Assembly: GCA_905479815.1 (NCBI GenBank)
Contig: CAJQOA010000115.1
Location: 1-48,314 of the forward strand
Origin: an uncultured Psychroserpens sp.
GTDB lineage: Bacteria > Bacteroidota > Bacteroidia > Flavobacteriales > Flavobacteriaceae
DNA: 48,314 nucleotides
Reading direction: 5' to 3'
Each line of letters opens with the position of its first letter. Position 1 is the stretch's first letter. Position numbers and translations under genes: made by a program. The notes beneath the pieces are model-generated. The model was not told the DNA's origin and ran no database searches. It worked only from the letters and a program-made list of their open reading frames with translations. Shown piece by piece: positions 19,420-29,552 of this stretch.

Positions 19420-19914
19420 TCATAGAGAATTAGTTAAAACAGCATCCAACTCTTTGCAGTAGTCATTCTCATTTTCACACAACCCTACTAAGGTTTCAAT
19501 CAATAATTGATTAACAGTTTCATCATTGGGATAAATTGCATAAGCCAGTTTAAACTCTGAATGTGCACCTTTTAGATTATTAGATGTCAATCTACTTGTA
19601 CCTGATTTTATTAAAAAGTTAAATGCAAATGTATTGTTTCGGTCTATACGTTCTTGCTTTTGTATGGCCCAGTTGTTTTGATAGTCTTCAAATTGAGGAA
19701 TTTTATAATACAAACCAATCGTCACTAACCCAATTAAGAATAAGCTAAAAACAATATAAAGGTTACTCGATTTTTTTGAAGGCTGAAGTTTAAATACGCG
19801 ATCGTAAGTAGAAAGCGTATTGCACGTTGGTCTTCGCTTTCTTTTCGAAAACGGTTTTCTTGGACCTTGTTTATAAATCCAAGCTGCCATACCAAATCCC
19901 ATATATCCTCCCAT
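19420..19914 (-). CDS. Membrane protein with TPR-like C-terminus
   Basis: This 164-aa protein opens with MGGYMGFGMAAWIYKQGPRKPFSKRKRRP, a basic soluble segment, then one transmembrane helix (about residues 53-70, LYIVFSLFLIGLVTIGLYY), then a helical C-terminus resembling one or two tetratricopeptide units (NTFAFNFLIKSGTSRLTSNN, AHSEFKLAYAIYPNDETVNQ). Two cysteines lie near the end. It is last in a ten-gene minus-strand run and separated from the preceding gene by 98 nt, so membership in that operon is uncertain. Function unknown. Confidence 0.65.
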   Translation of the reverse strand: MGGYMGFGMAAWIYKQGPRKPFSKRKRRPTCNTLSTYDRVFKLQPSKKSSNLYIVFSLFLIGLVTIGLYYKIPQFEDYQNNWAIQKQERIDRNNTFAFNFLIKSGTSRLTSNNLKGAHSEFKLAYAIYPNDETVNQLLIETLVGLCENENDYCKELDAVLTNSL

Positions 19915-20012: not shown

Positions 20013-20513
20013 CTAATTTTTCAACACTAAAAAAATCAAACTAATTCCAAATCCAATTATAGCAGATATCAAATTATATTTTGATTTAAGCTTTAGATCA
20101 TTATGAAATTCTTTACTGAAAATCTTATGATGATTTACAATAAAAAGTAATCCAAGGTTGACTAACAGAAAGAAAATAAGGATTAAAAAATATCTAATAT
20201 CATTAACCCATTCATCATTAACTATATCATCATAAAATGTAAAAATGAGATTGAATAAAATAAAATAGAAATACTGAGTGATTAAAAACCATCCAAATCT
20301 ATTTCTAAAGAAAAGACCGACTAAAGAAAGAATAACAGGTAATGATGTTCTAAAGATTGAAAAAGTAATTATAATATGATTACTTGAAGTAAAATCAAAA
20401 TTAAAATCTATTCCTTCAAAAGTTTCAACAAATAAAGATATAGCATTCGATCCTGCAGCAATGAGCATAAGAAACAAGAAAACATACAGAACAGAAATTA
20501 ATCTAAATTTCAT
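20013..20513 (-). CDS. Five-TM integral membrane protein, unknown function
   Basis: This 166-aa, strongly hydrophobic protein has about five predicted transmembrane helices (near residues 4-24, 47-68, 72-93, 105-125 and 145-164). No conserved catalytic motif is visible. It begins only 5 nt after the stop of the 564-aa gene, so it belongs to the same transcript as the AAA-ATPase cluster. It may be an ordinary small membrane protein riding in the operon or a membrane part of the system. Confidence 0.6.
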   Translation of the reverse strand: MKFRLISVLYVFLFLMLIAAGSNAISLFVETFEGIDFNFDFTSSNHIIITFSIFRTSLPVILSLVGLFFRNRFGWFLITQYFYFILFNLIFTFYDDIVNDEWVNDIRYFLILIFFLLVNLGLLFIVNHHKIFSKEFHNDLKLKSKYNLISAIIGFGISLIFLVLKN

Positions 20514-20518
20514 GAATT

Positions 20519-22213
20519 TTAATTATCATTCAAAGCCTTCAAAGAATCTAATTTACGTTGCAAAGCTTCAATTTCTGGTGTGTTTTTAGCCTCTTTTGGG
20601 ATTACTGTTAAAGAATCTACCATCTGTTGTAAATCGTTATCTGTGATTTCTTTTTCGTAATAATAACCAATCCCTTCACTTGCTCTCCAAGCTTCTCCTA
20701 ATTGGTTATAAACTTCTTCATCCCAAGTACTAGGATGTTTAACATCAATCCAAATTACGTCGCGATACTCACTATCAACTAAAACGAGATCTGGTGTTGC
20801 TGATCCATCAAATTGCTTTGCATCAGAATCACTAATTGCAGAAATTGTTCCTAAAAAGAACATACGTTTTCTACCTGCTATCTCTTTAATATACGGTCTA
20901 AATTCTACTGGTGTATTCGCCGTCCAATCGATTTCTTTTTTAGACTCTTTTACTTTTTGAGGCATTGCAGAAACACCTGCATATCCTTGCTTTTTTGAGG
21001 CATGATCATAATAATAAATTTTATCAAGTCCATCTGCTGGCACAAAAACACTATAACTCAAACTGGTACGTTCATCACCTATTGGCTCTAATCCAAACCA
21101 ATGGTACAAACCAGTATAAGCATCACTCTCTGAACCTGCAAAATCAAAATCGGTTACGTAAGGTTGTTGGTTTTGATCTTTAGACATCTTTGGTATTTTA
21201 ACCGCTGTCAACATATTCCATGGTAATGGATCACTAAATCCACCAAGAAACTTTAAAGATTCAGCTTGTAGTCGAGATACTTTTTCTGCTAGTGTATTTT
21301 GTTTGGTTAAGTAAGGGTAATTCTTCATCTCATCTGGAGAGATAAAGGTTCCTTTTCCTATGGTGATTCGCTCCATATAATCGTTCATATCATGCTCACC
21401 ATTTTCGATAACCATAACACCTCCAAAACTTGGATAAGGGAAGAAAAAACCTTTCCACTTAATTAAACTCACGACTTGCACCCATTCTCCTGAATCATTT
21501 TTCATATAAAATGTATCGCTTGGCTCATAATTAATAAGCATCCAGGGATTAAAACGCTGCACAACTGCATTGTATGTATTACGGCTAAACTTTAAAGTTT
21601 CACCTATTGAAAAGGTTACCGGAATTCTATTTTCATTAGAAAAACGAGGAAACGGTGTTGTACTTGACACTGCAAACACTTCTTCTGTATTATCACTAAT
21701 TTGTTGGAATGTATAATTCTCTGATGGTTGAATAGCCATCGTCCATTTATTTTCATCTTCAATACGAACTAAATGCGGTAGAGATACATCTTTGGTTTCG
21801 CCTACACTTTCATTAGCCATTGTAAAAATGTTTTGAAGCGGCTGGATACGTTCGTTGCGAGTTAATGGCAATTCGTTAATCTCAACTTTATTTAAGTCAT
21901 TGAACACATTGTATGTTCGCATGTAATCATACATCTTAAAATGCCATCCTGCAACATAGATTAACCCAAAAAACACTAAAAGTAAAGCGAGAGTTCCTAA
22001 GCGCTTGCCTGTACTTGCTGAGCTTCTAAATTTTCTAAGTCCAAAAAACAATACGACTAAACTTAATAGAATAATGAAGATATATTTCCGAAGAAATAAT
22101 AATCCAGGTTGATAATCATCTCTAAATGCAAATAATGCTATGAGTAGAATTAAACCTAAAAAAATGGTTATGAATTTTTGCTTTGCTCCTTTGTTCCAGT
22201 ATGATTTGATCAT
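20519..22213 (-). CDS. Membrane-anchored 564-aa protein of the AAA-ATPase cluster
   Basis: Three transmembrane helices occupy the first 95 residues (about 14-30, 41-58, 73-91). A large region of about 470 residues follows, rich in aromatic and polar residues and with no domain I recognise (landmarks: WKGFFFPYPSFGGVMVIENG, LPWNMLTAVKIPK, SYSVFVPADGLDKIYYYDH, PDLVLVDSEYRDVIWIDVKH). It ends in a short heptad-like helix (EIEALQRKLDSLKALND) suitable for oligomerisation. Whether the large part is periplasmic or cytoplasmic cannot be settled by eye. It lies 113 nt downstream of the 180-aa gene. Confidence 0.65.
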   Translation of the reverse strand: MIKSYWNKGAKQKFITIFLGLILLIALFAFRDDYQPGLLFLRKYIFIILLSLVVLFFGLRKFRSSASTGKRLGTLALLLVFFGLIYVAGWHFKMYDYMRTYNVFNDLNKVEINELPLTRNERIQPLQNIFTMANESVGETKDVSLPHLVRIEDENKWTMAIQPSENYTFQQISDNTEEVFAVSSTTPFPRFSNENRIPVTFSIGETLKFSRNTYNAVVQRFNPWMLINYEPSDTFYMKNDSGEWVQVVSLIKWKGFFFPYPSFGGVMVIENGEHDMNDYMERITIGKGTFISPDEMKNYPYLTKQNTLAEKVSRLQAESLKFLGGFSDPLPWNMLTAVKIPKMSKDQNQQPYVTDFDFAGSESDAYTGLYHWFGLEPIGDERTSLSYSVFVPADGLDKIYYYDHASKKQGYAGVSAMPQKVKESKKEIDWTANTPVEFRPYIKEIAGRKRMFFLGTISAISDSDAKQFDGSATPDLVLVDSEYRDVIWIDVKHPSTWDEEVYNQLGEAWRASEGIGYYYEKEITDNDLQQMVDSLTVIPKEAKNTPEIEALQRKLDSLKALNDN

Positions 22214-22297
22214 AATTTAGTGTTGTCATTGCTAGTTACGCTTTTTAGCGTGCTGTGGCAATTTATTGTATTAATCTTAATGACTTATAATGAGATA

Positions 22298-22313
22298 CTT
22301 AAATTAATTTAAG
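22298..22313. repeat. Perfect 16-bp AT-rich palindrome
   Basis: CTTAAATTAATTTAAG, in the 113-nt gap before the 564-aa gene. It could be a regulator site or a weak processing hairpin, but AT-rich palindromes also arise by chance. Confidence 0.4.
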
Positions 22314-22326
22314 ATTACAGTCTCTG

Positions 22327-22869
22327 TTACATTAGACCCTTATCTTTCAATCGGTCACGTGCAGATTTCTCATCAACTTTTGGCATAGGTTCTGCATTGA
22401 TATCTTCTGTAACGTCTTCAATCTCCTTAGCATCTCTGGTTTTTAAATCCTCTATGAAATCTTTACCTTTTTCAACTGCTGTTTCAAACTTATCTTCTAG
22501 AGATTCACTTTGTGCTTCGATAACTTGTCCAGACTTTAATACCATATTAGCTAAATATGTTCCCAATAAGGTTCCTACTGCAAAAGAGGCAAATGCAGAA
22601 ATACCATTATAGCTCCCAAAAACAGAAATTGGTGTTAAAAACTCTACAACTAAAGCTGCAATTAAAACTAAAGCGACTACAAAAAGAAGTCTTGGAATAA
22701 AAGATTGTTGGTAGATAAACCCCTTTTTACTATTTGGAGCCATCTGCAATTCTTTGCTATTCAATATTTTATTTATAAAACGATATATGCCATTACTGTT
22801 GGATTCTCTCCAGTATAGAAAAATTCCAAATAGTATTGCTGCTATAAATATTACTAATTCTATTCCCAT
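22327..22869 (-). CDS. 180-aa membrane protein of the AAA-ATPase cluster
   Basis: Three hydrophobic helices: an N-terminal one (about 3-20, IELVIFIAAILFGIFLYW), then about 55-78 (FIPRLLFVVALVLIAALVVEF) and about 88-110 (ISAFASFAVGTLLGTYLANMV). The C-terminal 65 residues are highly charged and helical (KFETAVEKGKDFIEDLKTRD), probably cytoplasmic and available to bind a partner. It lies 44 nt after the 411-aa gene. No family recognised. Confidence 0.65.
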   Translation of the reverse strand: MGIELVIFIAAILFGIFLYWRESNSNGIYRFINKILNSKELQMAPNSKKGFIYQQSFIPRLLFVVALVLIAALVVEFLTPISVFGSYNGISAFASFAVGTLLGTYLANMVLKSGQVIEAQSESLEDKFETAVEKGKDFIEDLKTRDAKEIEDVTEDINAEPMPKVDEKSARDRLKDKGLM

Positions 22870-22913
22870 AGTTGTTGGTTTTGATGATGCTTTATAAAGT
22901 TAGTCTAATTTTA

Positions 22914-24149
22914 TTAAATATTGTTACTAATTGTCTCTATCACCCAGTCTTTTAAAGAATCATCCCAAGTTGTATATTGCTTATAAAATTCTTCTTTATC
23001 ATACCAATACAAGAATAAAACATCTTTTGGTGCAATGTTAACGAGTAATTTCCAGATTAAGTCTTGATGATTTGGATGTAAGCTCGAATGTGGTTCATGC
23101 ATAGCTTCAAACAAACCATCATCAACGATATCTGATATTTTATATTGATTACTAGTTTCAATTTTTTCTAAATAACGCTCTACACTCATGACCTTTTTAC
23201 GCGTATCAATATCGACCTTGTTTAAGTAACTTTTAAACAATAAAGGATCATTGAGAATATCTCTTATAGGATGTTGCGTATCTTTTAAATATTGAGAGAA
23301 CTCAAATTTTTTGATACGTTCATAGCGCTTGGTATTTACAATATCTTCCAAATCATAAGCGATTATAATATGGTCTCGAAGTTTTTCCATCAATTCAGGT
23401 TGTGAAATATGAAAAATCATAACATCATGAACTGTATCTTTAATGGCTTCTTTATACCATTTCATCTCTTCAAATACTACAATTGGTGAAATGAAATCAC
23501 GCAAGACATAAACACCTCCAAACGATTTTGTATAGAATGAATCTGTCACATAATTAACAGACCTTAAATTCAAATCACGCTCACGTAAATCACCATATTT
23601 TGTGGCAGATTCAAGCAATTGATTATGAAGATCTTCATCTATAAAATTATTACCAGTCTTAAACTTTTCAATAAGCTCTAATTGTTCATCTCTTACATTA
23701 TCTAGATTATCAATAAGATGAAACTTAATCGTAACAATTTGATATCTAAGCACATCTAAAGGTTCATAAAAAGCATCGATGCTTTGATCAAAATCAATAC
23801 AAATAGCAGAATCTCTTGTAATATCATTAATCTTCTCACCATGAACCTTAAATACAGACTGCATCATTTCCCTATCAAATGTATGATATGGTATATACAC
23901 AGGTTTTTTATTTTGTAGAGGAGATATGATAATGCCATGTGGATTTGATTCGCCATTACACAGGTAGTTTCCGTCCTTTTTTTCTTCTGCTACTTCTGGA
24001 CTCCAGCCAATACCATCAATATGAAAATGAGTGAGCTTAGTCTCAGTAAAGCCTAACTTTTTAAGGCATTTATTATAACGCTCAACTAACTTACCACTCA
24101 CGGGAATTAATTCACTTCTATATAAATTTGCTGCTTTTAGTTTTTGCAT
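22914..24149 (-). CDS. 411-aa soluble protein of the AAA-ATPase cluster (possibly DUF6638-type)
   Basis: Predicted cytosolic, with no signal peptide or membrane helix. The N-terminal half is mixed alpha/beta (HFHIDGIGWSPEVAEEKKDG, NPHGIIISPLQNKKPVYIPYH). The C-terminal half is helical (RKKVMSVERYLEKIE) and ends in a segment rich in Trp and acidic residues (YWYDKEEFYKQYTTWDDSLK). From memory it resembles a Bacteroidota family listed as DUF6638; I cannot confirm this. It lies 27 nt after the 145-aa gene, in one transcript. No catalytic motif seen. Confidence 0.65.
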   Translation of the reverse strand: MQKLKAANLYRSELIPVSGKLVERYNKCLKKLGFTETKLTHFHIDGIGWSPEVAEEKKDGNYLCNGESNPHGIIISPLQNKKPVYIPYHTFDREMMQSVFKVHGEKINDITRDSAICIDFDQSIDAFYEPLDVLRYQIVTIKFHLIDNLDNVRDEQLELIEKFKTGNNFIDEDLHNQLLESATKYGDLRERDLNLRSVNYVTDSFYTKSFGGVYVLRDFISPIVVFEEMKWYKEAIKDTVHDVMIFHISQPELMEKLRDHIIIAYDLEDIVNTKRYERIKKFEFSQYLKDTQHPIRDILNDPLLFKSYLNKVDIDTRKKVMSVERYLEKIETSNQYKISDIVDDGLFEAMHEPHSSLHPNHQDLIWKLLVNIAPKDVLFLYWYDKEEFYKQYTTWDDSLKDWVIETISNNI

Positions 24150-24176
24150 CTTGTTTCCGTATGAGCGGTAATCTTA

Positions 24177-24614
24177 TTAATTTTTTGACCAACCAATTAT
24201 TTGAAAAATTCCCCCAAGAACTCCAATTATGAATAATAGAAGCCCAAACATAAGAAGGTAAGGAACTAATTTATCGCTCCATTTTTCTATATATGGTTTA
24301 GAGATTTCAATATCATCTCTCATTTTATAAATTGGTTTAATTAAAGAAACTGAATCCTTTATATCATGTCCAAACCAATCTCCTCCATCAATTTTTATTA
24401 AATCAATTTCATTTTTAGAGTCATTAATTTTTCTAAAACCTATTAATAATTCTTTAGCGAATAATAACAAACCATCTTTATTTGAACGTATACATGATGA
24501 TAACTCGTCTGCATTATTTTCAATAGGATCATAATCTAAATCAATATATCCTTTTTCTTCAGAACTGTTTAATTCTAAAATCTCGATAATTGTATTTAAG
24601 TCATCATTTTTCAT
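24177..24614 (-). CDS. Tail-anchored 145-aa protein coupled to the AAA ATPase
   Basis: About 110 acidic, soluble residues (IEILELNSSEEKGYIDLDYD, DLIKIDGGDWFGHDI) are followed by a single C-terminal transmembrane helix (about 117-139, LVPYLLMFGLLLFIIGVLGGIF) and a four-residue end. This is the topology of a tail-anchored protein with its soluble part in the cytoplasm. Its ATG overlaps the stop of the AAA gene by 1 nt (TAATG), so translation is coupled. It may recruit the ATPase to the membrane. No family recognised. Confidence 0.65.
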   Translation of the reverse strand: MKNDDLNTIIEILELNSSEEKGYIDLDYDPIENNADELSSCIRSNKDGLLLFAKELLIGFRKINDSKNEIDLIKIDGGDWFGHDIKDSVSLIKPIYKMRDDIEISKPYIEKWSDKLVPYLLMFGLLLFIIGVLGGIFQIIGWSKN

Positions 24615-26575
24615 TAATCTCTATTCCCAAACTGCTCTCTGGCTTCGGTTTCTATATTCAATTGATTTATTCTAGAATCTACTTTTCGCTTGAAATCGGT
24701 ATCTGCAATAGTAGCTACGTTATCTAAATAACGAACAACTTCTTGTCGGCGAATTTCAGAAAAATCTAATCCTTTCATATTTCCTCGCATTAACTCCTGA
24801 AGCATATTAAACTTCGTTTCATAATCTTTCTTGAAATAGCTTTCAGGGTTTTCAAACCAGTCTTGTTCTAAATCAAAATCTGTTAAACGCAATGATACTG
24901 CACTCTGTATGTTTCTTACATCACGAGATGAGAAGAATGGAAATATCTTTTGAATCTCTTTATACAAATTAGCATAAAACAAGTGATCTGTAGATTTAAA
25001 CTGCTTCTCTATTTTGTCATACGCATCTAAAACACGCTCCTCAGTTGGTTTATCAGACACATTAAAAATCTCACCCATGTTCTTCGCTAAACCTTGATCT
25101 TGCAGGTATGTGTAATCATTTGGACCTTGCATATTAACAAAATCTGGCATTGTACTATCTAGTTTTCTCCACCATAAATGATCTTGATCTAAAAAATCAT
25201 GCTCTGTACGAGCACCATCAATTTTAAAACGTCCTTGTACTCTAGATATAACTGCTTTATCTAGCATCTCTGGTAAATTAGTGAATAACCCAATAGAACT
25301 ATTACCGTAATTAACTGCATAAGCACCTTCTGTATATCTCAAAAACACGCCTATTACTTCTTTTACACCTGCAGAAACTCCCTGAGCTGTACGTTCTTGC
25401 AAATTGTTTTCGGCATCATCTATTGGAGCAAAAATTAATTTACTTGGATCTCCTAAAGGCTTCATCCAATCTACCATTTTTTCTGCAGAACCACCTTGAA
25501 AGGTTGAAATCAACGTGTCTGGCATTGGGTGAAACAAAAATGGAATATCTAAATTATCTGAATGTTCTTTTAATCGGGTTGCTATAGCAGCAATCAACAT
25601 ACTTTTTCCAGTTCCCGGAATTCCGTAGCCCATAAATACTGGCATAAAACCACCTAGTTCTTGAAACGGATTCTTCTTAGCTTCAAAATCGTAGCTTAAC
25701 ATACGCTCAGTTAAACGACGAGCAAAATGCTTTGCATCTCTGTTACCTACAATTTGTTCAAACTGTATTTTATTAAATTCTACACTTTTTGCTGTGCCTT
25801 GAAAAACGTTATCCCAACCTGCAACTGCAAATTCTGAGTTTTCTAATTTATAGGTTCTATCTCCAATAGTCTCTGTGTACTCCAAACTACTCTTACGCAT
25901 TTGAATTTCAGCAATTAGCGCTTCAAAATACACCACTGTAAAATCAATAACATCCTTATCTGTTTTGATGATTTCTGGATGTCCTAAATATTTATCATAA
26001 TAAAACAACGCACATGAGATTCCTTTTAATGGCGACATTAAAGACACCTCAGGAATTCCTGCAAATTTGTTTTTCATGACGCTTAAATCATCTGAAGCAA
26101 CCGTTTTTAAGTCATGTAATATTTTATAAGACATGGCAAACAACATAAATGCTGTGCTTGTTTGCATTTTACTTTCATATTCGCGTTTTCCAGAATTATC
26201 TAAAGCTGATCTGTTTTCAGATAAACTAGATAAACCTGAAGAATCATAGAAACTGTCTTTTATCCAAATTCCTAAAGTGATGCCTTCTTGAACCGCATAA
26301 AGTGTTTGATTTAAATGAATTGGAATGGCGATAGACTCTGGTAGTAATCGTTTTTTAAGCTCTAAAATAGTTTTTGATACAGATGTAACATCGGTCCCTC
26401 CATTTCCTTTAGCGCGAGATAAATACAATAGTATAGACTCATCTTTGGCGTCTTTATCTTTGTTCTTTGCTCTCTGACCTTGCTCCCATTGGATACTTTT
26501 TATATAAGATGTTGCTTCATCACGAAGCATATCTAGTTCATTTTGTTTTATAGGAAATGTTGAGTTGTGTTCCAT
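24614..26575 (-). CDS. Classic-AAA-type ATPase
   Basis: The 653-aa protein has an N-terminal helical domain of about 300 residues not seen in common AAA proteins, then one AAA module. Walker A is GIPGTGKS (318-325). LISTFQGGSAEKMVDWM (355-371) parallels the pore-loop and GxSE region of p97/FtsH-type proteins, with aromatic F359. The Walker B region is LIFAPIDDAEN (380-390), with Asp where the catalytic Glu is expected. Sensor 1 and the arginine region, FTNLPEMLDKAVISRVQGRF (431-450), match the AAA second region of homology (N433, R445, R449). It probably forms a ring that threads or remodels a protein partner. Neighbours are a coiled-coil protein and several membrane proteins. Confidence 0.85.
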   Translation of the reverse strand: MEHNSTFPIKQNELDMLRDEATSYIKSIQWEQGQRAKNKDKDAKDESILLYLSRAKGNGGTDVTSVSKTILELKKRLLPESIAIPIHLNQTLYAVQEGITLGIWIKDSFYDSSGLSSLSENRSALDNSGKREYESKMQTSTAFMLFAMSYKILHDLKTVASDDLSVMKNKFAGIPEVSLMSPLKGISCALFYYDKYLGHPEIIKTDKDVIDFTVVYFEALIAEIQMRKSSLEYTETIGDRTYKLENSEFAVAGWDNVFQGTAKSVEFNKIQFEQIVGNRDAKHFARRLTERMLSYDFEAKKNPFQELGGFMPVFMGYGIPGTGKSMLIAAIATRLKEHSDNLDIPFLFHPMPDTLISTFQGGSAEKMVDWMKPLGDPSKLIFAPIDDAENNLQERTAQGVSAGVKEVIGVFLRYTEGAYAVNYGNSSIGLFTNLPEMLDKAVISRVQGRFKIDGARTEHDFLDQDHLWWRKLDSTMPDFVNMQGPNDYTYLQDQGLAKNMGEIFNVSDKPTEERVLDAYDKIEKQFKSTDHLFYANLYKEIQKIFPFFSSRDVRNIQSAVSLRLTDFDLEQDWFENPESYFKKDYETKFNMLQELMRGNMKGLDFSEIRRQEVVRYLDNVATIADTDFKRKVDSRINQLNIETEAREQFGNRD

Positions 26576-26653
26576 ATTTTATAGTCTTCAGTCTCTTCTG
26601 TAGTAAACAGACACTTAATCTGTTCTGTTTTCTTTATCTAAAACTGTATGTTA

Positions 26654-27700
26654 TTATTTTTTATTAATCTTGAGATCAGCAATTTGAATAGGCGCTTTCG
26701 CTAATTTATTCATAATCTCAGGTGTTTTATTATATAGTAATTGTATGATTCTATGTGGTGCAAAAACGTATCGTTGCCTAAATATAGCATCCCACTTTTG
26801 AAAGGTTTGTTTGCTAAAAAAACTACCTTCTTTAAATTCGCTTTTTGATTTGACTTCGTCAATCTTAAAAGAGATAGCATACGATTCTAATGGTATTGCT
26901 TTTTCTGCAATACCTTGTAAAACAGCATGTGTTACTTTATTCTCGTCTTTAGCGAATACATTATGTATAGGTCCTAAATCTACACGTTTTATAAGCTTAG
27001 GAAATAGTTTAGGGATACGTTTGTCAATCCCATAAGCCATTATATCTAGAGTCATTTCTCTATCAGCAACCGTTTTTAAAGCGTAGTAAATTTCATCTCT
27101 GTCTTTTAAAGGGCTTCCATCATAATCAAAATACATGTAGCAAATAAATGGTCTATTATGTGACACATCGTAAAAACTCCAACTTACCATAAACTCTCCA
27201 GAAGAACCTTGAGGTGCTTCTATAATTTTGCCTTGTACAAAACGATTGAATATGTATTCTTTTTTAGCAGATGTATAATAAACAATAGATGACGCTTGAA
27301 ATAATTTGCGTTTAGTAATTGGTTCTTTCTTTCGCAATAAAGTATCTAAGAATTCGTCTTTTAATACATCAACATTAGTAAGCCTACCTAAATAGTCATC
27401 ACGTAATTCTAAATCATTAAACAGATATCGAAACTCCAAATAATTTGGAAAACCAGAGTCTGTCAAATCTACCTTCATATTTTCTTCATCATCATACATG
27501 TACTTCACACGCATAGCTTCTATAGAATACAAGAGTAAATCTGAATATTGCTTAAACAATAAGATCTCCGTTTTCTCTAAAATTTGCTTTTGTTGTACAG
27601 CTACAATGAGCTCTTTAAGTGCAAAGTCTACCATTTTGTGGTAAAACACATACTGCTCTTTGGAGTCTAATATTGCAGAATCTAATGGTGTTACAATCAT
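26654..27700 (-). CDS. 348-aa soluble protein of the AAA-ATPase cluster
   Basis: Predicted cytosolic, no signal peptide. The first 160 residues are helical (FALKELIVAVQQKQILEKTE, LLLYSIEAMRVKYMYDDEE). A strand-rich centre follows (FMVSWSFYDVSHNRPFICYMY, then DYDGSPLKDRDEIY), then a helical C-terminus (FQKWDAIFRQRYVFAPHRII). No known domain or catalytic motif recognised. It sits between the 60-aa gene (22 nt) and the AAA ATPase (78 nt). Candidate adaptor or substrate-binding partner for the ATPase, by position only. Confidence 0.65.
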   Translation of the reverse strand: MIVTPLDSAILDSKEQYVFYHKMVDFALKELIVAVQQKQILEKTEILLFKQYSDLLLYSIEAMRVKYMYDDEENMKVDLTDSGFPNYLEFRYLFNDLELRDDYLGRLTNVDVLKDEFLDTLLRKKEPITKRKLFQASSIVYYTSAKKEYIFNRFVQGKIIEAPQGSSGEFMVSWSFYDVSHNRPFICYMYFDYDGSPLKDRDEIYYALKTVADREMTLDIMAYGIDKRIPKLFPKLIKRVDLGPIHNVFAKDENKVTHAVLQGIAEKAIPLESYAISFKIDEVKSKSEFKEGSFFSKQTFQKWDAIFRQRYVFAPHRIIQLLYNKTPEIMNKLAKAPIQIADLKINKK

Positions 27701-27722
27701 TTTTAGAATTGAAATCTTTAAT

Positions 27723-27905
27723 TTAAAAATTGAACTTCTCTTTACAAACGTGTGTATTCGTTGTTACTACAGTTGTTCCGCTATCTGAAGTCTTGATCTC
27801 TTGAATTTGAGAACATTCATGATGATCATTAGAATCTTTTATAAATAGGATTGCTATTACCGATACCAAAATTACCGTAATGGAAAAAAGTATTGTTTTT
27901 TTCAT
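27723..27905 (-). CDS. 60-aa membrane-anchored or exported peptide
   Basis: An N-terminal hydrophobic helix (about 4-23, TILFSITVILVSVIAILFI) precedes about 37 polar residues with two cysteines (HHECSQIQEI, THVCKEKFNF) and a Thr/Val-rich middle. It could be a single-pass protein with its tail in the periplasm, where the cysteines might pair, or a cleaved secreted peptide. It lies between the coiled-coil gene and the 348-aa gene, with a hairpin-rich leader. Function unknown. Confidence 0.6.
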   Translation of the reverse strand: MKKTILFSITVILVSVIAILFIKDSNDHHECSQIQEIKTSDSGTTVVTTNTHVCKEKFNF

Positions 27906-27956
27906 AACTGTTTATTTTTAGTTTGAGTAAGTAATTGACTTAGGCGTTTGTTGAAT

Positions 27957-27971
27957 CTCGTCAAAGACGAG
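27957..27971 (-). repeat. Small hairpin in the leader of the 60-aa gene
   Basis: CTCGTC-AAA-GACGAG, a GC-richer 6-bp stem with a 3-nt loop. It lies just downstream (in transcription) of the larger inverted repeat. Confidence 0.6.
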
Positions 27972-27980
27972 CGACTGCTT

Positions 27981-28025
27981 ATAGCTTAACCTAATTTTGC
28001 CATTAGCACAATTAGGTTAAGCTAT
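27981..28025 (-). repeat. Perfect 16-bp inverted repeat after the coiled-coil gene
   Basis: Arms ATAGCTTAACCTAATT (27981-27996) and AATTAGGTTAAGCTAT (28010-28025) around a 13-nt loop, starting 7 nt after the coiled-coil stop codon. In the transcription direction (minus) there is no T-run after the stem, so it is not a standard terminator. It looks like a 3'-end stabilising or attenuating structure that would let the first gene be expressed more than the rest. Confidence 0.75.
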
Positions 28026-28032
28026 CATTAAA

Positions 28033-29379
28033 TTATCCTAATAAATCGTCGTCGTTAGATTCTGGCTTTGGTTCTCCTTCTGGTTCTTCTCCTCCATCTC
28101 CTGAAGGTGCGTTAGCATCTGCAGCATAGTAATCTTCAAAAATTTCTTTCATATCGATACCATAACGCTCAGCAAAATTCTTTTGAATAGACTTATCTTT
28201 TTCACGAATTTCTTGTAAAGCCTCTGCATAACTACCATAAACACCTTGCATCACTTTCTCATGAACTGGAATATTATCCATCATTTCCTGACGTGCTTTA
28301 GCACTTGCAGTATGCATTGATGCTAATGTTTCACCAATATGCTCATCTGTCTTAACACCTAAATGTTCTAAAATAGCTGCAAATTCTTGATCTGTACGTG
28401 CTTTTAAAGCCACGATATAACCATCATAATATTTAAGACGCTCATCTGTATCACTCTTTAATTTTGCACGATGTGTTTGTAAGTTACTACGTAATGATGT
28501 TAATACTTTGATCGTTAAATTATGCTTGTGTACAAAACTATCTTTTGAAGCAGCAAGGGTTGTATAAGCATTTTTAAGACCTTCTAACTCTTCTACTTTT
28601 TGTTCTAATGTTGTGACTTTACTTAAGGCTTCAGAATATTCTGTGGATTGCTTATCTGCAACTTCTTCTAAAGCTTGACGTGCTTGTTTAAGCAGTGCAT
28701 ATTGTTCTTCTAGTTTATCTTCGACTTCTTTCTTCTTTTGAAGCGCCTTAGTATGATTATTACTCGCTTCTACGATTGCAGTCTTTAAACTTTCTTCAAC
28801 TTCTTTAATTTCAATTTCTCTATCTTTTAAGCGCTTAACAGCTGCCTGACTTTTAAAAGACAACTCATTTAAGAGTGTTTGTACATCTGCCGTTTCAATA
28901 CGTTGCTGAAACATAGCTTTTGCTTCATTATCTGCTGCATCACGAACTTTTTGAGCATCTTTCAGCTCTTGTTCTGCTGTTTTAATTTTTCCTTTTCTTC
29001 CAAAAAGGTTATTCCAAAATGTATCTGGCTTTGCATTAGCGTCTTCCAATTCTACTTTTGCACGCTCTAAACGTTTGATAGCGTCATCAATGATTTTTTG
29101 CTCACCTGCGTTTAATGCAGAGAAACCTTCAAACATAATTCCAACCTCATCTTGATAATCTGTCAAATCTTTAATCGCATCTAATAATGTAGAACGATCT
29201 TTCTCTGCCATATCAACAACATTGTCTAATGTAGCATTTAAGATTTTTTGACGACTCTCTGGATCATCTTCTTGAGCAAGCTTTGACTTCATTTGGTCAA
29301 TAGCTTTCCCCCAATTAACATCTACTTTTTCAGTTTTTTCGTTGGAACTTGTTTCTAATAAATCAAAATCATCAGACAT
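28033..29379 (-). CDS. 448-aa coiled-coil protein, first gene of the AAA-ATPase cluster
   Basis: Soluble, extremely helical and charged. Long heptad stretches run from about residue 90 to 310 (DDAIKRLERAKVELEDANAK; KEVEDKLEEQYALLKQARQA; KVTTLEQKVEELEGLKNAYT). A more compact helical part follows (HTASAKARQEMMDNIPVHE), then an acidic Gly/Pro/Glu-rich tail (PSGDGGEEPEGEPKPESNDD). No signal peptide or membrane helix, so cytosolic or peripheral on the inner membrane. Such proteins are often auto-named microtubule-binding, which is meaningless here. By position it is the likely filament, scaffold or substrate of the AAA ATPase. A TelA-like relation was considered but no TelA motif was seen. Confidence 0.7.
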   Translation of the reverse strand: MSDDFDLLETSSNEKTEKVDVNWGKAIDQMKSKLAQEDDPESRQKILNATLDNVVDMAEKDRSTLLDAIKDLTDYQDEVGIMFEGFSALNAGEQKIIDDAIKRLERAKVELEDANAKPDTFWNNLFGRKGKIKTAEQELKDAQKVRDAADNEAKAMFQQRIETADVQTLLNELSFKSQAAVKRLKDREIEIKEVEESLKTAIVEASNNHTKALQKKKEVEDKLEEQYALLKQARQALEEVADKQSTEYSEALSKVTTLEQKVEELEGLKNAYTTLAASKDSFVHKHNLTIKVLTSLRSNLQTHRAKLKSDTDERLKYYDGYIVALKARTDQEFAAILEHLGVKTDEHIGETLASMHTASAKARQEMMDNIPVHEKVMQGVYGSYAEALQEIREKDKSIQKNFAERYGIDMKEIFEDYYAADANAPSGDGGEEPEGEPKPESNDDDLLG

Positions 29380-29552
29380 ATTTATGTTGTGTATTAAAGT
29401 TGAACAATATTTAGGACTAGCAATTTCGTTAAAAAATCTGATTTTATAAACATAAACTACCTAAAATATATGTAGTAAAAGGTAATGTTTTGTTACAAAC
29501 TATTTTCGTAAATCAATTGTTATTACCTTTAGATTCTTAAAATATATAGATT

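Follow-up and report, generated by a model that had tools for sequence, protein, structure and literature searches.

Gene content and organization of the locus

The stretch of DNA analyzed here (the window) covers positions 1-48,314 of contig CAJQOA010000115.1 of an uncultured Psychroserpens sp. (assembly GCA_905479815.1), whose draft genome totals 3.3 Mb and comprises 265 contigs. Between positions 20013 and 29379, it carries nine minus-strand open reading frames (ORFs), one of which encodes a classic-AAA ATPase. Six of these genes form an ordered core that is conserved in Bacteroidota and on one contig of the candidate phyla radiation (CPR), and four of the six recur in the same order in Pseudomonadota. 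The genes and two non-coding elements are as follows (X and Y denote the counterparts of A448 and C348 in Pseudomonadota):

28033-29379, minus strand: A448, 448 aa, cytosolic coiled-coil protein; core gene 1; X in Pseudomonadota
27723-27905, minus strand: B60, 60 aa, lineage-specific single-pass peptide; not in the core
26654-27700, minus strand: C348, 348 aa, soluble protein; core gene 2; Y in Pseudomonadota
24614-26575, minus strand: AAA, 653 aa, classic-AAA ATPase (PF00004); core gene 3
24177-24614, minus strand: E145, 145 aa, tail-anchored protein in the AAA-F411 slot; not in the core
22914-24149, minus strand: F411, 411 aa, DUF6638 (PF20343); core gene 4
22327-22869, minus strand: G180, 180 aa, small membrane protein; core gene 5 in Bacteroidota
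20519-22213, minus strand: H564, 564 aa, three transmembrane (TM) helices and a domain of about 400 aa; core gene 6 in Bacteroidota
20013-20513, minus strand: I166, 166 aa, four-TM protein; not in the core
27981-28025, minus strand: 16-bp stem-loop directly past the A448 stop codon, identified by folding against shuffled sequences
29420-29432, minus strand: leader element TTAACGAAATTGC upstream of A448, with a degenerate core in other upstream regions

The ORF listing of the window bore out the arrangement described in the original prediction, which had been made from the letters of this stretch: nine minus-strand genes with short gaps and one 1-nt overlap. From A448 to I166, the gaps are 127, 22, 78, -1, 27, 44, 113 and 5 nt, the negative value being the TAATG at 24614 that is common to the AAA and E145 genes. 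A tenth minus-strand ORF (19420-19914, 164 aa) lies 98 nt past the I166 gene. By hydropathy scan, A448, C348, AAA and F411 have no TM segments, B60 has one, E145 has one near the C-terminus, and G180, H564 and I166 have two, three and four, respectively, matching the earlier assignment of a single-pass 60-aa peptide, a tail-anchored protein and three multi-TM proteins. Scans of the window proteins against NCBIfam and PADLOC added nothing firm, those against PHROGs gave weak matches (best E 0.00014), and the Rfam scan of the window gave no match.

Conservation of the core in Bacteroidota

The surroundings of the AAA gene, up to 20 kb, were searched with 15 window proteins in 30 Flavobacteriaceae genomes. 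Six genes, A448-C348-AAA-F411-G180-H564, occur in this order on one strand, and all six are present in 27 of the 30 loci; at least one pair of core neighbors overlaps by 1 or 4 nt in 14 of the 30. The three exceptions are L055, where the locus is truncated; L066, where the last two core genes are missing from the stretch covered; and L067, which has the first three core genes together, with F411 elsewhere in its genome (G380) at a distance of about 750 kb. As to the predicted nine-gene unit, six of the genes are co-conserved, and those for the 60-, 145- and 166-aa proteins are local extras.

Of 397 Flavobacteriaceae genomes, 114 carry the AAA gene, the source genome among them (68-93% identity in the other carriers), as do 8 of 345 sampled genomes of the class, six of which come from other families (42-44% identity). 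All six loci from these other Bacteroidia families contain the six-gene core in order. Scanning a genome collection with the AAA alignment yielded at least 343 relatives, of which the best 80 (L093-L172) were examined; 70 of these 80 loci retain all six core genes with order and strand kept. These loci partly repeat genomes of the earlier sets (L087/L094, L088/L103, L090/L098, L092/L102, G088/L150, G370/L155). Eight of the ten incomplete loci (L097, L104, L106, L109, L123, L128, L145, L150) are truncated where the contig or locus ends or are interrupted by a long insertion. Of the other two, L107 lacks G180 and H564 in the 8.5 kb past F411 (the F411 of genome G1542 lies within this locus), and in L096 F411 is off the contig, elsewhere in the genome. 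F411 is absent from all 38 tested genomes without the AAA gene, the absence of the AAA gene in G660 being inferred from the missing AAA match in the family search.

L096 belongs to a metagenome-assembled genome (G1216) that is labeled Saccharospirillaceae and groups with Bacteroidota; it is probably mislabeled or a mixed bin, and was left out of the Pseudomonadota count.

All six core genes are also present in L115, a contig of Candidatus Sungiibacteriota (CPR) from a 0.9-Mb genome, where a DnaJ-kinase gene and other small genes surround the core. No other carrier was found among the 239 genomes searched in the CPR phylum group, so the presence of the core in this genome may reflect transfer or faulty binning. 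Past the operon in L115 (15853-17567), there are two ORFs of 360 and 216 aa that matched no Pfam family.

A four-gene version in Pseudomonadota

The search in Pseudomonadota was made by tblastn with the CPR ATPase and covered plasmid records only. Long ATPase matches were obtained in ten records, from Sinorhizobium, Shinella, Rhizobium and Vibrio, and a short match in two Enterococcus records. The DUF6638 query matched the same ten records, in Vibrio over 35% of the query length. In all five replicons examined, the genes X-Y-AAA-DUF6638 lie in this order. Profiles built from Bacteroidota sequences were run against 12 proteins from Sinorhizobium and two Vibrio (the E-values hold for this set) and recovered X with A448 (36-55 bits), Y with C348 (99-118 bits), the ATPase (231-299 bits) and the DUF6638 protein (107-198 bits), with all other pairings at or below 4.0 bits. 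A448 and X were also aligned to each other by hhalign with a probability of 99 (E 7e-18, 326 columns). In Sinorhizobium and Vibrio, respectively, PF00004 scored 41.8 and 50.1 bits, and DUF6638, 256 and 199 bits. The occurrence of the four-gene version in rhizobial and Vibrio megaplasmids implies that the module crosses phyla. Co-conservation accordingly extends well beyond close relatives, to other Bacteroidia families, the CPR contig and Pseudomonadota.

G180 and H564 were not seen beside the core in the examined Pseudomonadota replicons. In Sinorhizobium, the four genes are followed by a DUF2333 protein (PF10095, E 6e-16) with predicted TM segments, and Shinella has, at the equivalent place, an ORF whose start is much like that of the Sinorhizobium protein; other genes follow in Rhizobium leguminosarum and Vibrio. 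Judging from these sequences, the common part consists of the coiled coil, Y/C348, the ATPase and the DUF6638 protein, and the membrane partners vary by lineage.

In one Sinorhizobium strain (L174, 15869-17614), the AAA gene is separated from the DUF6638 gene by an endonuclease-domain gene and an IS4-family transposase. The two Vibrio plasmids (L175 and L178) are very large circular replicons, 925 and 882 kb in size, on which mfd and secA are found close to the four genes.

The patchy spread, the one match in 239 CPR-group genomes, the location on megaplasmids and the variable genes in the AAA-F411 slot (see below) would all fit a stress or anti-phage defense system that moves between lineages, with the coiled-coil and membrane proteins altering the envelope upon attack and the NUDIX or other slot genes serving as effectors. 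Nevertheless, we regard this explanation as very unlikely. A448 and the ATPase change slowly, which is not the pattern of arms-race genes; in nine distant loci, whose flanks were inspected only by eye from the starts of the ORFs, the neighbors mostly resemble ordinary metabolic and housekeeping genes, although L099 has a helicase-like ORF 2.9 kb downstream; and PADLOC gave only weak matches, to an IetA-type ATPase, a MukB-like protein and LmuB. The similarity to IetA/IteA of the anti-phage system IetAS (PADLOC E 0.00036 to 0.0092) lies in the AAA domain, but is limited to it.

The ATPase and the soluble proteins C348 and F411

The AAA domain of the window protein matches PF00004 with 34.0 bits (cut-off 21.2, E 4.8e-8), so the predicted classic-AAA assignment holds by the Pfam cut-off. 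In an alignment of nine AAA sequences (four from Bacteroidota, one from CPR and four from Pseudomonadota), the following are constant in all nine: the Walker A sequence G-x-P-G-T-G-K; Ile-Asp-Asp at Walker B; Ser-x-[FY]-Gln-Gly at the position of pore loop 1; the Asn of sensor 1; a pair of Arg in the second region of homology (SRH); and a late Arg and Asn-Ile in the sensor-2 region. We take these to have their usual roles, including the SRH residues as Arg fingers and the aromatic residue as that of pore loop 1. Walker B usually ends in Asp-Glu in AAA proteins. The profile score and the motif set place the protein among the classic AAA ATPases, with Asp as the second Walker B acid departing from Asp-Glu. 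The N-terminal part, of about 260 residues, is more variable, and in the window protein no Pfam family scored above the cut-off there. The first PDB matches of the window protein, in a single-sequence search, are VPS4B/SKD1 (E 0.0015-0.0029), over the AAA domain.

In the family alignment, 275 of 653 positions are invariant in the ATPase and 58 of 348 in C348. Both C348 and F411 had been described as soluble proteins without recognizable domains. This description stands for C348, which has only weak Pfam matches (E 0.036 at best for the window protein and 0.0085 for the best of 21 members), but not for F411, which is a DUF6638 protein (PF20343, 122.8 bits against a cut-off of 27, E 2.2e-35), as are all 20 aligned F411 members. 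The possibility that C348 and F411 are relatives of each other was rejected (hhalign probability 0.1). PDB searches with the profile alignments A13, A14, A11, A7 and A12 yielded nothing useful, and the genes could be placed in no known pathway.

The coiled-coil protein A448

Among 31 family sequences, 241 of the 448 positions of A448 are invariant, the highest share of the six core proteins (truncated sequences depress the F411 and H564 values). After a few residues, the protein starts with FDLLE, and it ends in a variable tail that terminates in DDLL. The C-terminal pattern [DNE][DNE][LM][LM] is found in 75 of 77 sequences; of the remaining two, one has a masked end and one comes from CPR.

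The AlphaFold2 (AF2) model of A448 is all helix, with a mean predicted local distance difference test (pLDDT) score of 68, and its longest helices span residues 166-239 and 246-343. In Foldseek, AhlC (ClyA-type) and F-BAR domains rank first (best E 0.0045), and in VIA, Z reaches 12.7, which is below the level of a shared fold for helices. F-BAR and ClyA-type bundles are membrane-binding proteins, yet their similarity to A448 is at the level of any helical bundle. Since any long-helix bundle gives such scores, the fold was left unassigned. Neither ESCRT-III nor PspA chains appear among the 50 Foldseek and 50 VIA matches listed for A448, which excludes nothing.

Two candidate relatives of A448/X were rejected by sequence. 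Against 12 PspA sequences, hhalign gave probabilities of 1.0 (all X) and 2.2 (Pseudomonadota X); the PspA-to-PspA control on the split family worked moderately (probability 85, covering just 53 columns). TelA (toxic anion resistance, PF05816) is soluble and largely helical, as is A448, but differs from it in that hhalign against four TelA sequences gave a probability of 0.1, with 99.9 in the TelA-to-TelA control. According to passages of PMC7824862, TelA is part of structures beneath the membrane that belong to the Ter stress systems.

The strong conservation of A448, its long modeled helices and the weak profile matches between its central region and the coiled coils of keratins (E 0.02) raise the alternative that A448 is a cytoskeletal or sub-membrane filament for cell shape or division, severed by the ATPase in the manner of katanin or spastin. 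Keratin matches are, however, common for any coiled coil, and the patchy presence of the genes (114 of 397 family genomes, 8 of 345 in the class sample) speaks against a basic role in shape or division; this alternative appears quite improbable.

The membrane proteins G180 and H564

In G180, a variable charged linker is followed by a conserved short C-terminal motif (KSARDRLKDKG in the window). Among 73 G180 ORFs, 59 end with this motif, two more have Q in it, and nine end with D-W-R-x-G-[VI]-x-x-F; two of the remaining ORFs are cut by the contig, and one, from CPR, has neither motif. The distribution follows clades, with KSAR[DE]RLKDKG or a near form in Flavobacteriaceae and D-W-R-x-G-[VI]-x-x-F-x-x-[KR] in other Bacteroidota. 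Each clade has thus kept a short motif of its own at this position, the behavior expected of a docking peptide. In both A448 and G180, conserved short terminal motifs stand behind variable stretches, as is typical of docking peptides.

H564 consists of a basic N-terminus, three TM helices and the domain of about 400 aa. Membrane proteins follow the positive-inside rule of topology, and given the basic N-terminus, the domain is predicted to be periplasmic. The AF2 model (pLDDT 84.2, predicted template modeling score 0.81) has no match at E 0.001 among solved structures. For the C-terminal part, VIA gave weak matches to YpmB (Z 4.9 over 124 aa, root-mean-square deviation (rmsd) 5.9), CD1622 (Z 4.7 over 61 aa, rmsd 2.3) and YpeB (Z 3.8 over 125 aa, rmsd 13.5), all of which we take to be PepSY proteins; they are outscored by unrelated short helices, with Z up to 6.1, and PepSY is not among the Pfam families listed for H564. 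Four internal repeats in the periplasmic domain, suggested by the model, were rejected, as hhalign of the four sub-alignments detected none. In L058 (5637-7316), the H564 frame is 288 aa long and the tblastn coverage is 560 aa, so the gene is possibly broken.

In BFVD, a virus-labeled protein of 588 aa (A0A6G5YLZ4) aligns with the H564 model from end to end (E 1.6e-16, TM-scores 0.56 and 0.54, 13% identity), so a viral relative of H564 may exist. Viral contigs gave 58 pattern matches, none of which was confirmed as a relative; with further queries on these contigs, the CPR AAA protein gave one short match (27%), and F411 and two more H564 queries gave none. Relatives in Lak phages were rejected: the window H564 had weak matches to 15 records (E 0.3-0.6), taken as chance, and in two Lak regions translated with TAG read as Gln, no H564 relative was detected by profile and no core protein scored above 10.6 bits. 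PHROGs gave only single weak matches for H564 members.

The presence of membrane partners in the Bacteroidota operon, the large size of the H564 domain outside the membrane and the aromatic residue kept at the pore-loop position would suit another explanation, namely, that the AAA ring is a chaperone or extractor of membrane proteins (like Msp1, Bcs1 or a protease-less FtsH) acting on G180 and H564 or on damaged membrane proteins, with A448 as a scaffold that keeps the ring in place. The core shared with Pseudomonadota, however, contains the coiled coil but not G180 or H564, and the top invariant share of A448 (with the reservation made above for F411 and H564) is that expected of a main partner. 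We consider an extractor of this kind unlikely.

Putative expression signals

The 80-nt stretch at the A448 stem-loop folds at -27.1 (z -4.47), and none of 200 shuffled sequences folds as well. The window stem-loop has no T-run. A hairpin with a T-run was found in 26 of 51 A448-C348 gaps versus 23 of 124 in the other four gaps (Fisher p 3e-5; gaps of 40-300 nt); the shuffled sequences used in this hairpin survey preserve base composition only.

The degenerate core of the leader element TTAACGAAATTGC is present in 53 of 74 upstream regions, where 0.4 are expected, and 50 of the matches lie 47-57 nt before the A448 ATG. Across 20 genomes, 17 occurrences of the exact 13-mer were counted, and 11 of the reversed control pattern. 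Fourteen of the 17 occurrences, in 14 of the 20 genomes, are located 2.6-3.9 kb upstream of the AAA gene, that is, at the operon start, and three are elsewhere. Because 14 of 17 occurrences are at the operon, the 13-mer marks the A448 operon rather than a regulon, and a regulon was rejected with only three matches away from the operon in 20 genomes.

A proposed machine and its relation to known systems

We tentatively propose, with somewhat less than even confidence, that the operon encodes a dedicated, membrane-tethered classic-AAA machine that pulls on A448 and disassembles or remodels it, with H564 as a periplasmic sensor. The AAA ring would grip the flexible end of A448 and draw the protein through its pore, so that A448 assembled on the cytoplasmic side of the inner membrane would be taken apart or reshaped. 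C348 and F411 would be soluble adaptors linking the ring to the coiled coil. In Bacteroidota, the cytosolic C-terminal motif of G180 would serve to hold the machine at the membrane, and H564 would report envelope conditions from the periplasm; in some rhizobia, the DUF2333 membrane protein may replace the Bacteroidota membrane partner. The operon would be under its own leader element, and A448 would be made in excess of the ATPase because the stem-loop past its gene would lower the expression of the genes downstream. Of the earlier prediction, a co-conserved set that includes a classic-AAA ATPase is supported, with no described counterpart found in the searches; the tail-anchored dock is not supported, and the coiled-coil protein remains a candidate polymer, scaffold or substrate.

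The proposal draws on the conserved gene order with its short overlaps, the joint absence of F411 and the AAA gene, the ATPase motifs, the long helices and terminal motif of A448, the end of G180, the hairpin and the H564 model. Co-conservation, gene order, motifs, cross-phylum homology, hairpin and leader element are observed; ring formation, A448 as the substrate, its polymerization, action at the membrane, the adaptor roles, the excess of A448 and sensing by H564 are inferred. Several points weigh against the proposal. The C-terminal motif of A448 is missing in the CPR and Pseudomonadota forms, and as the end differs there, capture of the tail has no single universal signal. Asp-Asp at Walker B, as aligned in all nine sequences, may mean slow hydrolysis. 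The nine-sequence AAA profile found no PDB chain at E <= 0.001, and the likeness to VPS4 is therefore a weak single-sequence match only. An excess of A448 over the ATPase is suggested, rather than demonstrated, by the hairpin. In three of the five Pseudomonadota replicons (R. leguminosarum and the two Vibrio), no membrane-protein gene was recognized beside the core by eye; because of this, and with G180 and H564 not adjacent to the core in Pseudomonadota, membrane action may not be general.

Among the closest known systems is ESCRT-III/Vps4 (CdvB/CdvC in archaea). In both systems, a coiled-coil protein (Snf7-type in ESCRT-III) is paired with a classic AAA ATPase and has a flexible tail with a conserved end, and VPS4B/SKD1 are the first sequence matches of the window ATPase in the PDB. 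The differences are the 448-aa length and very long helices of A448 and the four to six dedicated genes. PspA/IM30 with its AAA partners shares the theme of a coiled coil combined with an AAA protein; passages of PMC11237479 describe PspA beside AAA ATPases, with Vps4 associations, in the PSP envelope stress response, and a Bacteroidetes neighborhood with PspA and Snf7 that holds a third coiled-coil protein. A448/X, however, show no relation to the 12 PspA sequences that hhalign could detect, and the present gene set is not described in those passages.

The ATPase superfamily and an AAA ring with a coiled-coil partner are known; the set of parts and the four-gene core are undescribed in the literature searched. 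The searches returned no description of the gene set or of a cross-phylum four-gene core, DUF6638/PF20343 is not named in the open-licence literature searched, in line with the earlier remark that no characterized system with these parts was known to its author. A bolder reading is that a coiled-coil/AAA membrane remodeler outside the ESCRT-III/PspA superfamily exists in Bacteroidota, Pseudomonadota and at least one CPR lineage, as a bacterial counterpart of ESCRT-III/Vps4 that arose independently and has adaptors and leader control of its own and, in Bacteroidota, a periplasmic sensor; we think this rather doubtful.

If the proposed machine is real, bacteria have a further AAA machine that disassembles a coiled-coil assembly, encoded by genes that are nearly all unnamed and conserved across phyla. 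It would provide a context for DUF6638 and DUF2333, and a test of whether ESCRT-like logic arose more than once. Should the proposed mechanism prove incorrect, an ordered four-gene core that extends from Bacteroidota to Pseudomonadota and whose marker family is unnamed in the papers searched would still represent a clear gap, and the module is present in tractable rhizobia.

Non-core genes and the AAA-F411 slot

I166 and B60 had no match in the 30 related loci, and E145 matched in two of them (L051, L055). In the second set of loci, the gap ORFs include relatives of B60 in the A448-C348 gap of six loci and two blastp relatives of E145 in the AAA-F411 slot, one genome contributing to both E145 counts. 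E145 had been predicted to dock the ring. This role was rejected, since E145 lies outside the conserved core and its relatives occur in few loci, as those of an optional passenger of a slot that more often holds a NUDIX hydrolase.

The AAA-F411 gap is a slot for extra genes: it exceeds 400 nt in 49 of the 78 loci with both genes. The largest ORF cluster in the slot has 34 members (e.g., L105, 11965-12546) and is labeled NUDIX hydrolase from the one member tested (PF00293, E 4.3e-14). In L106 and L150, the AAA-F411 gap is interrupted by some 9 kb of inserted DNA, and the two insertions share related ORFs on the minus strand.

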